A stretch of DNA of 64,000 bases from an uncultured Verrucomicrobia subdivision 3 bacterium. GTDB lineage: Bacteria > Verrucomicrobiota > Verrucomicrobiia > Limisphaerales > UBA11358. The stretch is taken from assembly GCA_903835255.1 (NCBI GenBank), contig CAILMI010000020.1, positions 1-64,000 of the forward strand, read 5' to 3'. A model generated the notes under the pieces. It did no database searches, was not told the DNA's origin, and was given only the letters and a program-made list of their open reading frames with translations. Within the stretch, counting starts at the first letter, position 1; the number at the start of each line of letters is the position of its first letter. Below are positions 16,219 through 21,852 of the stretch, piece after piece. A program made the translations under genes and the position numbers.

Positions 16219-17820
16219 TTGAAAAAGTGCGCTACAAACGATTTGCCTGGCCGCCCCCGCCGCTTGGTGCTCATTCTCGGCGACCAGTTGGATGCCAATT
16301 CCGCTGCGTTCGACGGGTTTGATCCGAAGCTCGATGCCGTCTGGATGGCCGAAGTGGCCGAAGAATCAACCCACGTCTGGACGCACCAGATGCGCATCGC
16401 GCTATTCCTCGCCGCCATGCGCCACTTCCGTGATGATTTGCGAAAGCGTGGTTTCAATGTGTATTACCAGGCCCTGGATGACACGCCCAGCGCGGGAAGT
16501 CTCGGCGAAGCATTGCGCGCGGCAATCAGCCATTTGGCCCCGCAAAAGCTCATCATCGTCCAACCTGGCGAATGGCGGGTGGAGCAAAGTTTGCGCGCCG
16601 CCGCCCGCCCGCTTGGTTTGGAGCTGGAGATTCGCCCCGACCGCCATTTTCTGTCATCGCGCGAGGATTTTGCCGCCCATGCGAAAGGGCGCAAGCAGCT
16701 CCGTATGGAATTCTTCTACCGGGAGAGCCGCCGGAAGCACCAGGTGCTGATGGATGGCGACCAGCCGGTGGGGGGGGCGTGGAACTTCGACGCGGACAAT
16801 CGCGAGAGTTTCGGCAAGTCGGGCCCGGGCAAAGTGCCGCAGCCCATGCAATTTCGACCCGACGAAGTCACGCGCGACGTCTTGGAACTCGTGGCCAAAC
16901 GTTTTGCCAAGCATCCCGGCAGTCTGGAGCACTTCGATTGGCCGGTGACACCGGAGCAGTCCCAAGCGGCGCTGCGCGATTTCATCCAGCACCGGCTTCC
17001 TAATTTCGGAAAGTATGAGGACGCCATGTGGGGTTCAGGTGACGGTCGGTTCGCACAGCCGTATCTGTTTCACTCGCGACTGAGCGCCGCAATGAATTTG
17101 AAATTGCTCGATCCGCGCGCCGTCATCGCGGCCGCCGAGGAGGCCTATCGCAAAGGCCAAGCGCCGCTGGCGAGTGTCGAGGGTTTTATACGCCAGATTC
17201 TTGGCTGGCGCGAATTCGTGCGCGGCATTTACTGGCATTTCATGCCGGGCTACCGGGAGTTGAACGCCCTGAACGCGCATCAGCCGCTGCCGGATTTTTA
17301 TTGGACGGGTAAAACTGAGATGAACTGTCTGCGCGAAGCCATCGGCCAGACGCTCGAATTCGGTTACGCGCACCATATCCAGCGGCTCATGGTCACCGGA
17401 CTTTTCTCGCTGCTGCTCGGGGTCAAACCGCAGGCGGTTCACGAGTGGTATCTCGCTATGTATGTGGACGCGGTCGAGTGGGTGGAACTGCCTAACACGC
17501 TCGGCATGTCGCAGCATGGCGATGGCGGTTTGATGGCCAGCAAGCCTTACGTCGCTTCCGGGAAATACATCGAGCGCATGAGCAACTACTGCGCGGGCTG
17601 CCGCTTCGACCCCGCGAAGTCCACGGGCGACGCCGCCTGCCCCTACACGACGCTCTACTGGGACTTTCTGCTGCGGCACGAGCCGTTCCTTGCCAAGAAT
17701 CAGCGCATGGCGATGCAGCTGAAAAACCTCGCCCGCCTGGACGCGCCCAAGCGAAAAGCCATTCAGCAGCAAGCAGCCCAAGTCCGCGCCGCCTGTTGCT
17801 GCCCCGCGGCTGCGATATAA
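16219..17820 (+). CDS. FeS-type bacterial cryptochrome/photolyase (FeS-BCP, PhrB-like)
   Basis: Member of the prokaryotic 6-4 photolyase group, 533 residues, expected to bind FAD, a lumazine-type antenna and a 4Fe-4S cluster. The N-terminal alpha/beta domain starts RLVLILGDQLD. Cysteines at residues 370, 458, 461 and 474 have spacings 88-3-13, identical to the cluster ligands of Agrobacterium PhrB (350, 438, 441, 454). The region around NTLGMSQHGDGG and MSNYCAGCRFDP is family-typical. TTG start at 16219. First gene of a co-directional string; the next gene starts five bases after its stop. 6-4 photoproduct repair is the likely role; a signalling role is possible. Confidence 0.92.
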   Translation: MKKCATNDLPGRPRRLVLILGDQLDANSAAFDGFDPKLDAVWMAEVAEESTHVWTHQMRIALFLAAMRHFRDDLRKRGFNVYYQALDDTPSAGSLGEALRAAISHLAPQKLIIVQPGEWRVEQSLRAAARPLGLELEIRPDRHFLSSREDFAAHAKGRKQLRMEFFYRESRRKHQVLMDGDQPVGGAWNFDADNRESFGKSGPGKVPQPMQFRPDEVTRDVLELVAKRFAKHPGSLEHFDWPVTPEQSQAALRDFIQHRLPNFGKYEDAMWGSGDGRFAQPYLFHSRLSAAMNLKLLDPRAVIAAAEEAYRKGQAPLASVEGFIRQILGWREFVRGIYWHFMPGYRELNALNAHQPLPDFYWTGKTEMNCLREAIGQTLEFGYAHHIQRLMVTGLFSLLLGVKPQAVHEWYLAMYVDAVEWVELPNTLGMSQHGDGGLMASKPYVASGKYIERMSNYCAGCRFDPAKSTGDAACPYTTLYWDFLLRHEPFLAKNQRMAMQLKNLARLDAPKRKAIQQQAAQVRAACCCPAAAI

Positions 17821-17825
17821 AATTT

Positions 17826-18911
17826 ATGACGCCCCAACAATTAAAACTCGCTCACCGCCGGCTTTTGCTCGGCATCACAAATGTCGGCTTCTGGGTGCTG
17901 CTGTCTGCCGTCGGCCTGCTTTGGCTGGTTTGCGGAGATACCCGCGAGTTCGATATGACACGCCTGGGTTTCGCTTTTTTGGCCGCAGTCGCCGCGCAGT
18001 CAGTGTTCGATTTTATTGGCGGCGCGTGGCTGATGCCCTCGCCTCGGCCCTCGTTGACACAGTTTCTCCGCTGTTGGTCCCGCGGCGCGCTGGTGCACAC
18101 GCTGGTGCTGACCGGCGTGGGGATTCTAAGCTACGCCAGCTTCCGGCTCACCGGCGGGTTTTGTTTTGCCATTCTGTTCGCGACGGCCGGGTTGGCATTC
18201 GGCCGACGGCACCTGCTCCGCGCACTGGCGGGTGTTCCAACGGATGAAGTTTCAAGCGCTGGAAAAAAACTTCTGGCCGCCGACGTAACGGACCCAGCCT
18301 TCACCGGCGGGATTGTCGGGTTTGGTCCGTCCGCCAGGAGCCTGATTCCTGTGCGGTGGCTGACAAGTTTGTCCCCGGAGGAACTCGCCGTGGAATCGGT
18401 TCGGCGTCAGTGGCAGATGGAAAACGGCCTGCCCATCCGTACGTCTCTTTTGATATTGGGCTGGAATCTTCTGGGCGGTTTCGTCGGAGCGCTTGCCTTC
18501 AATCTGGCTGAGCGCACACCGCCCGAAGCATTGCTCGGCTATGCGTGTGGGATGACACTCTGGACGTTTGGCGGGCTGCTTGTATTACCCGCGTTGAGTC
18601 GCAAAGCCGTGTGCGCAGCCGATCGTGCCGCCGCCGATTCTGGCCAGGATCCGCGCCGTTGGATCACGCACTTCCCGGAGTTGGCTGGCGAGGACGGCAG
18701 TTCAAGCTCCAAGGTGCAAACCATCTTCTATCCGATTCCTTCTGCGGCGCTGCGGCTGCGGCAGTTGGATCAACCTCTGTCGGGACCTGTGCTCGGCAAT
18801 CTTGCGCGCACCAACCTCTATTACTCTTGGGCCTCGCTCACGCTGTTGGGGCGCGCCGTGCATTGCAACGTTGGCCGCCCGTGCCTCTGGGTTTTTCCGC
18901 CTTCCGCTTGA
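17826..18911 (+). CDS. Multi-spanning membrane protein, possibly a degenerate M48-type peptidase
   Basis: 361 residues with four or five hydrophobic segments before residue 130 and two more around 210-260. The middle segment IPVRWLTSLSPEELAVESVR resembles the helix leading into the HExxH of M48 membrane peptidases (LSPEEL-AVLAHExxH), but the zinc motif itself is absent (SVRRQWQMEN). If the resemblance is real this is a pseudopeptidase; otherwise it is an unknown membrane family. ATG at 17826, five bases after the photolyase stop; 56 bp separate it from the next gene, so it is probably in the same transcript. Confidence 0.5.
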   Translation: MTPQQLKLAHRRLLLGITNVGFWVLLSAVGLLWLVCGDTREFDMTRLGFAFLAAVAAQSVFDFIGGAWLMPSPRPSLTQFLRCWSRGALVHTLVLTGVGILSYASFRLTGGFCFAILFATAGLAFGRRHLLRALAGVPTDEVSSAGKKLLAADVTDPAFTGGIVGFGPSARSLIPVRWLTSLSPEELAVESVRRQWQMENGLPIRTSLLILGWNLLGGFVGALAFNLAERTPPEALLGYACGMTLWTFGGLLVLPALSRKAVCAADRAAADSGQDPRRWITHFPELAGEDGSSSSKVQTIFYPIPSAALRLRQLDQPLSGPVLGNLARTNLYYSWASLTLLGRAVHCNVGRPCLWVFPPSA

Positions 18912-18967: not shown

Positions 18968-20191
18968 GTGATCTGTAACCCATCTCGTACCGCCGCGCTG
19001 GGTCAGCTGGACGCGTTCACGTCCATCGCCGGACTCTATGCCCGCGACCGTAATCAAGTACAACCCCATCATTCGTCCGTGTCCCGACTGAGCCCCGCAA
19101 TCCGCCACCGACTGATCAGCGAAGAGGAGGTGGTGACCGCTGCTTTGCGAGTCCACCCGTTTGAGCGAGTGGAGAAATTCGTCCAAGAAGTTTATTGGCG
19201 GCGTTACTGGAAATCGTGGCTGTCGCTGCGTCCACAAGTCTGGAGCGATTTCCTGAGAGACCTGAGAGATGTCCCGGATCATCCCCGGGTCCAATGCGTC
19301 GAGCAGGCTCAATCCGGGAATGCCGTGATTGATTATTTAGCAAGTGAATTGGTGAGCACCGGATATCTCCATAATCACGCGCGGATGTGGTTCGCTGCGT
19401 GGTGGGTGCATGAAGCCCGATTGCCCTGGCAGCGCGGAGCGGCATTTTTTTACCGGCATTTACTCGATGGCGATCCGGCTTCCAACACCCTGTCCTGGCG
19501 CTGGGTGGCGGGTTTGCAAACCCCCGGAAAAACCTATCTCGCCCGCCGCAGCAATCTTGAAAAATTCCTGGCGCCCACACTGCTTGAGTCGCTCTCCGAC
19601 GGCCTGGCCGCTTTCGAAAATCCAAACGCCCTGCTGCCCGAACCCGTTTCTAAACCACCCATCACCCAAAGCGATTGGCCGCTGGAAAATCTGACCCCCT
19701 CCTTGGCGACCGGGCTTTGGATTCATGAAGAGGATCTTTCCGTGGAAAATTCGTCCCTGGGACGGCAATCCTTCTCATCTATCATCGTCACCGGTGATGC
19801 GGCGACCTGGGATCGCTACCAATTTCCAACTGTAAAACGACAATGGCTCGCCGCCGCCCTCCACGATGCCGCCACGCGCTCGGAGCTGCGATGGGAAGTT
19901 CCTGTTTCCCTCGAGATCCAAGAAGCCAACGAAGAGGCTGTGGTGCGCTGGGCGAAGGCGAATGCGCTCGATCAAGTCGCTGCGATGCGCCCGGAAATAG
20001 GACCCTTGCATGACTCCCTGCCGGGGCTCCGGGATCGCCTTGCCCAAGCTGGCGTCCGTCTCATCCTCCTCGACCGCCCGGAGGACCGACGCATCCGTCA
20101 CTTCGCCAGCGGCGGGTTCTTCCAGTTTTGGGAGCGACTGAGGAAGACGCTCGTTGAGGGCTCCGGCAAGAAGGCTTTATCGCGGTGTTAA
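18968..20191 (+). CDS. Photolyase/cryptochrome homologue with FAD domain first and a putative alpha/beta domain last
   Basis: About 407 residues from GTG 18968. The N-terminal ~240 residues are a photolyase FAD-binding domain: RVHPFERVEKFVQEVYWRR, TGYLHNHARMWFAAW (the family's TGYxHNRxRM motif), HLLDGDPASNTLSWRWVAG and PGKTYLARR. No antenna domain precedes it. The remaining ~165 residues look like the missing Rossmann-like domain moved to the C-terminus: strands SSIIVTGDA and QVAAMRPEIGP, RLAQAGVRLILLDRP, and ASGGFFQFWERLRK, similar to the strand-loop-FWxRL end of canonical antenna domains. The FAD-domain call is firm; the permutation is an inference. Confidence 0.8.
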   Translation: MICNPSRTAALGQLDAFTSIAGLYARDRNQVQPHHSSVSRLSPAIRHRLISEEEVVTAALRVHPFERVEKFVQEVYWRRYWKSWLSLRPQVWSDFLRDLRDVPDHPRVQCVEQAQSGNAVIDYLASELVSTGYLHNHARMWFAAWWVHEARLPWQRGAAFFYRHLLDGDPASNTLSWRWVAGLQTPGKTYLARRSNLEKFLAPTLLESLSDGLAAFENPNALLPEPVSKPPITQSDWPLENLTPSLATGLWIHEEDLSVENSSLGRQSFSSIIVTGDAATWDRYQFPTVKRQWLAAALHDAATRSELRWEVPVSLEIQEANEEAVVRWAKANALDQVAAMRPEIGPLHDSLPGLRDRLAQAGVRLILLDRPEDRRIRHFASGGFFQFWERLRKTLVEGSGKKALSRC

Positions 20192-20212: not shown

Positions 20213-20368
20213 ATGAAAGGCGTAAAAAAACAAAACCTGCCAGAAAAAATCTGCCTGCACTGTCAACGCCCATTTGCCTGGCGTAAAAAGTGGTCGCGCG
20301 ATTGGGAGAACGTCCGGTATTGCAGCGATGCTTGCCGCAGGGGCAAGGCCATCCTTAAAACAAAATGA
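20213..20368 (+). CDS. DUF2256 zinc-binding mini-protein
   Basis: A 51-residue protein in the gap between two larger genes. Cysteines at 14, 17, 37 and 41 form CxxC...CxxxC, with the family-typical [20 protein letters not shown] stretch between. DUF2256 genes are frequent neighbours of cryptochrome/photolyase genes in many phyla, and this placement fits. The stop overlaps the next start (ATGA, 20365-20368), indicating coupled translation. Function unknown; probably a small zinc ribbon. Confidence 0.85.
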
Positions 20369-20874: not shown

Positions 20875-21852
20875 TCAAGATGCGGATTTTATGATTGCCG
20901 CCGCCGCCCAGCCGGAGAGGGCTGCGCCTTCGACGCGCGGACCCCCGAAGGCGTCGCCCGCCAGCACCAGCGGGGGTGACTGACTCACGAGCAGGCAGGA
21001 TTCGGGGTCAACGCGCATCGGCTTGCTGTAGCGCCAGCCGTGGACTTGGAATGTCCGGATTCCCGCGCCGAGCCAAGTTGCCGCCGCGTCAAGCAGGGCG
21101 CGCCCGCTTTCTAGCCGGTCACCCTCCCAATGCTTCAAGCTGAACGCATGGGTGGCGTGAATCGTCACGGCCGGCTCCGCGGAGATGCCCTTCAATTGAT
21201 TGTCCGCAATCCACGCGATCGGTCCGTCGCTGGGCGCGAAGCCGCCGTGAGGTGGGATGCGCGATGGACCCTCGAGCGCCGCCAGGACGGCGAGACAGCG
21301 CTCGTATTCGATGGCGGCCAGACGCGTCCGTGTTTCCGGCGGGAGGACAAGCCCGCCTGCGTCCAAGATGGCCAGCGCCTGCGGTACGGGTGGCGTCAGC
21401 ACGACCGCTCCGGCGGTGAACGTGTGGCCACTGGCTGTGTCTGCATGCCATTGACACCCGTCGCGGCGCAGGGCGGCCACCTGATTTTCCAAATGGAGAT
21501 CGAGTTCCAGCGCAAGATGCTTGGCCACGGCTGACATGCTCGGTTTTCCGCGCCAGCGCAGGTGACCGTCCATGCCGCCCCCAAAGCCGCGGCACCATTC
21601 CTCTACCGCCCCGTTCTGGCGCGCCTGCTCCAGCACGGCGCCGAAGCGCGGATCGCGCGTCGTCATGAATTGCGCCCCGTGGTCAAACGTCGCGCCATCC
21701 ATGCGCCGGCTCGCGAGTCGGCCGCCGACGCCGCGCCCTTTGTCGAGCACCCGCACGCGGTAGCCGGCGCGTTGCAATTCCCGCGCTGCAATCAAGCCGG
21801 CCATGCCGGCGCCGATAACCAGCACATCTGTGGTTTGTTGGGTGGCTTCCAT
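20875..21852 (-). CDS. Renalase-like FAD-dependent NAD(P)/amine oxidoreductase
   Basis: 325 residues. Dinucleotide-binding motif VLVIGAGMAGLIAARELQRAG at residues 10-30, then VLDKGRGVGGRLASRR and FDHGAQFMTTRDPRF, typical of the renalase-like branch of the flavin amine oxidase fold. The C-terminal FAD segment PPLVLAGDAFGGPRVEGAALSG is present. Bacterial renalases oxidise wrongly reduced dihydro-NAD(P) isomers. Convergent with the photolyase string. Such oxidoreductases recur in photolyase neighbourhoods, so a shared flavin or redox theme is plausible. Two palindromes lie just upstream (21865-21897). Confidence 0.8.
   Translation of the reverse strand: MEATQQTTDVLVIGAGMAGLIAARELQRAGYRVRVLDKGRGVGGRLASRRMDGATFDHGAQFMTTRDPRFGAVLEQARQNGAVEEWCRGFGGGMDGHLRWRGKPSMSAVAKHLALELDLHLENQVAALRRDGCQWHADTASGHTFTAGAVVLTPPVPQALAILDAGGLVLPPETRTRLAAIEYERCLAVLAALEGPSRIPPHGGFAPSDGPIAWIADNQLKGISAEPAVTIHATHAFSLKHWEGDRLESGRALLDAAATWLGAGIRTFQVHGWRYSKPMRVDPESCLLVSQSPPLVLAGDAFGGPRVEGAALSGWAAAAIIKSAS

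Follow-up and report, generated by a model that had tools for sequence, protein, structure and literature searches.

The window analysed here, a contiguous stretch of 64,000 nucleotides, contains on its forward strand a 407-aa open reading frame for a reverse-order (NewPHL-like) photolyase (18968..20191, GTG start, TAA stop). The protein divides into an all-helical FAD/catalytic domain (residues 1-229, 18968..19654) and an antenna-like alpha/beta domain (residues 247-403, 19706..20176). Directly upstream, the interval 16219-18911 holds a DPRP-type photolyase-related gene with normal domain order and of the Fe-S 6-4 photolyase type (16219..17820, forward strand; Pfam PF04244, E = 3.4e-82), together with an unclassified, apparently membrane-spanning open reading frame. 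Directly downstream lies a small DUF2256 gene of 51 aa (20213..20368, forward strand; Pfam PF10013, E = 3.1e-22), which we treat as a neighbour only; DUF2256 relatives also occur near the photolyase in loci L003, L005, L006, L007 and L083. On the other strand, at 20875-21852, there is an FAD-dependent oxidoreductase, and in about ten other loci, one of them from Asticcacaulis (L141), a similar oxidoreductase adjoins the photolyase. Among the alphaproteobacterial loci L047-L072, the photolyase gene stands beside open reading frames resembling ClpP and ClpX in many Rhodobacteraceae-type genomes. Across the loci compared, gene context was uninformative, and since neighbours vary between phyla we claim no operon function. 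A canonical class I photolyase is additionally encoded elsewhere in the same genome (locus L121, contig C56 of G000), which brings the window genome to at least three photolyase-type genes.

The gene start is well anchored. In an alignment of loci, the GTG at 18968 coincides with the start position common to close relatives, and in two of these (L003 and L006) an in-frame stop lies immediately 5' of the shared start, so that no N-terminal domain has been lost upstream. A scan of the genome collection returned 80 loci with 102 confirmed stretches, mostly full length; the full-length form is kept in more than 70 genomes and is spread over Verrucomicrobia, Rhodobacteraceae-type Alphaproteobacteria and Microbacteriaceae, a conservation that excludes chance or sequencing error as its origin. 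Close to the window genome in the tree the gene is patchy, with only two sampled relatives besides the window genome carrying the full-length form, and a search of phages found no full-length relative. For all counts of residue invariance given below, the base is a set of 48 relatives aligned end to end.

The N-terminal half is identified as the catalytic FAD domain by profile, fold and conserved residues alike. FAD_binding_7 is the only Pfam family recognised in the window protein (residues 71-190, E = 2.9e-19), and it is matched by all 48 members. In VIA structural comparisons, residues 1-225 superpose on FAD domains from photolyases of known structure, best on 1np7_A residues 210-483 (Z = 17.6, 2.5 Å over 216 residues), with 1owl, the Anacystis nidulans photolyase, at Z = 17.3. 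Residues E283, W286, N349, R352 and M353 of 1owl correspond to E74, W77, N136, R139 and M140 of the window protein, and D380, D382, N386, W367 and W390 to D167, D169, N173, W154 and W177; each of the ten is invariant in 48/48 sequences. The CPD-contact pair E74 and W77 is encoded at 19187..19198 (forward strand, as for all features of this gene). The stretch from N136 to M140 (19373..19387) lies inside the motif TGYLHNHARM, and D167-W179 (19466..19504), inside DGDPASNTLSWRW, supplies the FAD contacts D167, D169 and N173 and the proximal tryptophan W177. Two of the three electron-transfer tryptophans, W177 and W154, are thus present in the window protein, and the third (1owl W314) is replaced, mostly by D, E or N (n = 48). 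No conserved cysteine was found in the 48 aligned sequences, and the family thus lacks those of the Fe-S type. A sequence-only reading of this DNA had placed the FAD domain at the N-terminus, and it had the quoted motifs starting within 60 residues of the start; the domain does begin at the N-terminus, but the motif positions were misjudged, with TGYLHNHARM at residues 131-140 and DPASNTLSWRW at 169-179.

AlphaFold2 models the whole protein as two confident domains (pLDDT 94.4, pTM 0.92). Applied to this model, Foldseek and VIA align the FAD domain only, since both follow chain order, and the C-terminal domain was therefore folded alone, again with high confidence (pLDDT 93.3). It has five strands (residues 248-252, 271-275, 313-316, 336-340 and 364-368) with helices between them. 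In VIA, the first 18 rows for this domain are all N-terminal domains of photolyases or cryptochromes (Z = 11.0-13.5), the top hits being to photolyase residues 2-170, headed by residues 2-131 of 8ijy (Z = 13.5, 1.8 Å over 118 residues) and including 1iqr 2-145 (Z = 12.6, 2.8 Å over 140 residues) and 1dnp 1-165 (Z = 12.2 over 150 residues). Universal-stress proteins and related HUP domains come next (Z = 10-10.8), mostly with shorter alignments: 103-122 residues for most universal-stress proteins, against mostly 140-155 for photolyases, the C-terminal extension included. Foldseek, given the same domain, returns photolyases and universal-stress proteins mixed, with one universal-stress protein just ahead by E-value, and for this reason the predicted fold taken alone leaves some doubt about the antenna identity of the domain.

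Profile comparison adds a second line of evidence. With hhalign, the C-terminal domain aligns to a canonical antenna-domain profile, scoring 31.9 across 110 collinear columns, compared with maxima of 22.7 in 300 column shuffles and 18.6 among 39 unrelated neighbouring families, and 10.6 for the reversed alignment. The corresponding domain of the actinobacterial Fe-S-type reverse-order proteins (L154-L175) scores 38.8 (E = 7e-6; shuffle maximum 23.6), and a combined C-domain profile reaches E = 2.9e-6 over 122 columns. As the two reverse-order branches score independently, both point to the same domain, that of the antenna. The signal depends on the diversity of the profile: a first hhalign run against close canonical photolyases only, a set of low diversity, gave none, and the score of 31.9 came with a wider canonical set in profile-profile comparison. 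One-way hmmsearch of the C-domain profile against canonical photolyases gave no match, and the Pfam family DNA_photolyase (PF00875) stays under its cut-off, its best E being about 0.08, reached in 2 of the 48 members. In the global profile alignment, GLWIHEEDL (19712..19738), on the first C-domain strand, stands in place of the canonical WFRRDLR, with D256 in this region invariant, and the closing motif GGFFQFW (20111..20131), whose G383 and F385 are invariant, aligns to the closing antenna segment (...PY.VFTPFW). Taken together, fold and profile identify the C-terminal half as a relocated antenna-type domain. With antenna domains as its best structural matches and a collinear profile alignment, the domain order is truly swapped, the FAD domain coming first and the antenna-type domain last. 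The sequence-only reading had proposed just such a permuted photolyase, to be checked by fold comparison of the C-terminal half and by profile searches with the halves separately; both comparisons bear the proposal out, and the open reading frame and start on which it was built are real.

By these results we regard the gene as encoding a NewPHL-type photolyase, with an N-terminal catalytic FAD half and an antenna-type alpha/beta domain moved behind it, with a probability of roughly 0.87. In such a protein, FAD would be bound by the N-terminal domain and photoreduced via a two-tryptophan chain of W177 and W154, a shortened chain that we infer from the absence of the third tryptophan found in canonical photolyases. 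A cyclobutane pyrimidine dimer (CPD) would be flipped into a pocket lined by E74, W77, N136 and M140, where light-excited reduced FAD would pass it an electron and so split it. The C-terminal domain probably packs against the FAD domain, where it would close off the cofactor site, as that of NewPHL reportedly does. Characterised NewPHLs suggest, by analogy, CPDs in single-stranded DNA as the probable substrate, and the repair chemistry itself would be that of these relatives.

Several other explanations deserve weighing against this one. An ordinary photolyase might have been deprived of its N-terminal antenna domain by truncation or assembly error and read on into an unrelated frame, and frame breaks do occur in single relatives (in L008, and in L183, where the gene is split in two). 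Such an accident is at odds with the more than 70 genomes that hold the full-length form, with the stops directly before the start in L003 and L006, and with a single confident two-domain model at pTM 0.92; its probability is negligible, and the conservation of the full-length gene already refutes it. The same stops and conservation counter the loss by error of an upstream antenna domain, which the sequence-only reading had named as a possible refutation. A different origin of the C-terminal half is harder to dismiss but still unlikely: it could be another HUP/Rossmann-like domain, for instance one resembling universal-stress proteins, that was joined to a solitary FAD domain in an independent fusion, in which case the likeness to antenna domains would reflect the shared HUP fold only. 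The Z-scores of universal-stress proteins, the one that heads the Foldseek list, and the failure of Pfam to recognise PF00875 above its cut-off in the family all suit such a fusion, whereas the antenna is favoured by the 18 leading VIA rows, all taken by photolyase domains and aligned over greater lengths, and by the profiles of the window family as well as of the Fe-S-type relatives, which are collinear and score well above controls.

A further alternative concerns function rather than domain origin. Repair is a predicted activity and the third tryptophan is absent, and the protein might instead be a photoreceptor, or a regulator of cryptochrome type, in which the FAD fold persists but repair has been lost. 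We consider this very unlikely, given that every CPD-contact residue is invariant in 48/48 sequences, that characterised inverted-topology relatives repair CPDs according to the account in PMC13274461, and that another photolyase-type gene lies two genes away.

The NewPHL-type photolyase encoded here has published counterparts. Photolyases of inverted topology (NewPHLs) have been in the literature since 2020, as cited in PMC9426592 and PMC13274461, with Emmerich et al. 2020 (NAR 48:12845) given as the source by citing papers; characterised members are A8LJA9 of D. shibae and M7YZC8 of M. mesophilicum. The D. shibae NewPHL is described as 'containing a mere Trp dyad' (PMC8948257). The window family shares with NewPHL an N-terminal catalytic FAD domain followed by a C-terminal (Z-) domain, a tryptophan dyad (the W314 position being mostly D, E or N), the residues by which CPD photolyases bind the dimer and contact FAD (48/48) and the lack of Fe-S cysteines (48 sequences). 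Full-length relatives of the window protein occur in Rhodobacteraceae-type genomes, a broader group to which Dinoroseobacter belongs. These alphaproteobacterial members are about 37-42% identical to the window protein, which differs from them as a verrucomicrobial branch; it is best classed as a NewPHL-type photolyase of verrucomicrobial origin, likened by its features and published descriptions rather than by alignment to the D. shibae protein.

Other reverse-order photolyases are less close. The Phr4/5/6 group was published in 2022 (Haney et al. 2022, PMC9426592), and Phr4/Phr5 and Phr6 of marine Synechococcus and Cyanobium likewise have the FAD domain first and the DNA photolyase domain last, but they have four Fe-S cysteines in the FAD domain, which the window family lacks, and Phr4/Phr5 are two genes where the window protein is one. 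The related Phr7 is also without Fe-S cysteines (PMC9426592). The class of short photolyase-like proteins, SPL, is described as having no N-terminal alpha/beta domain (PMC9649867, naming Xu et al. 2021, MBE 38:4505, as source), and the window protein resembles it in this and in a catalytic part similar to class I/III; whereas SPL is described as domain-less, the SPL-like Fe-S-type actinobacterial relatives found here carry the domain at the C-terminus, a likeness that rests on proteins that look like the class rather than on the Rhodococcus fascians SPL itself. Class I CPD photolyases (1owl, 1dnp, 1iqr) have the same two domain folds and catalytic residues, but in them the antenna domain is N-terminal to the FAD domain, the opposite order to that of the window protein, and they retain the third tryptophan that is absent from the window family. 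The sequence-only reading had supposed that a permuted member would be a distinct architecture, which does not hold, as the same order is already published for the NewPHL/SPL class and the cyanobacterial Phr4/5/6.

Related arrangements were seen beyond the window family. The actinobacterial proteins of L154-L175 are short and photolyase-like, with four Fe-S cysteines and a C-terminal antenna-like domain (AVWLTAESLGDADPALAAHPDLPAVFVFD...), and a similar C-terminal stretch is visible by eye in a Deinococcus plasmid protein (L140) and in Persicobacter (L142). In L183, on the minus strand of a genome sampled from an alphaproteobacterium's phylum (G450), a stop codon closes an FAD domain that shares 60% identity with the Deinococcus plasmid protein. 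An open reading frame that overlaps it, in a different frame, codes for an antenna-like domain of its own (TLIWAHDDMLGPHQPPF...), and this two-gene arrangement resembles that of cyanobacterial Phr4/Phr5.

In a tree of 64 FAD domains, a branch with support 92/69 sets the 29 reverse-order proteins apart from all other rows, and the window-type group has support 100/99. The support of 92/69 is moderate. Read as unrooted, the tree is compatible with the domain order having been exchanged once, short of proof. That all reverse-order photolyases (NewPHL, Fe-S-type SPL and Phr4/5/6-like) stem from one exchange, with the C-terminal 'Z-domain' being the relocated antenna domain, we put at even odds. 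With the class published in 2020 and 2022, novelty is limited, and the additions made here are modest: a verrucomicrobial branch, which extends inverted-topology photolyases to Verrucomicrobia; sequence and fold evidence, from the window protein and its relatives, for homology of the C-terminal domain to the canonical antenna domain; and a moderately supported branch that separates all reverse-order proteins from the rest of the tree. They bear on the live question of whether SPL/NewPHL represent a simple ancestral state without antenna, from which photolyases and cryptochromes arose, or contain the same two domains reordered. The 'antenna-less' reading is weakened, since in the proteins studied here the antenna domain is present at the opposite end of the chain. 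Should the single exchange and the relocation of the antenna domain both be true, reverse-order proteins would not be antenna-less relics, and the argument for them as antenna-free ancestors of the whole family would lose its basis.
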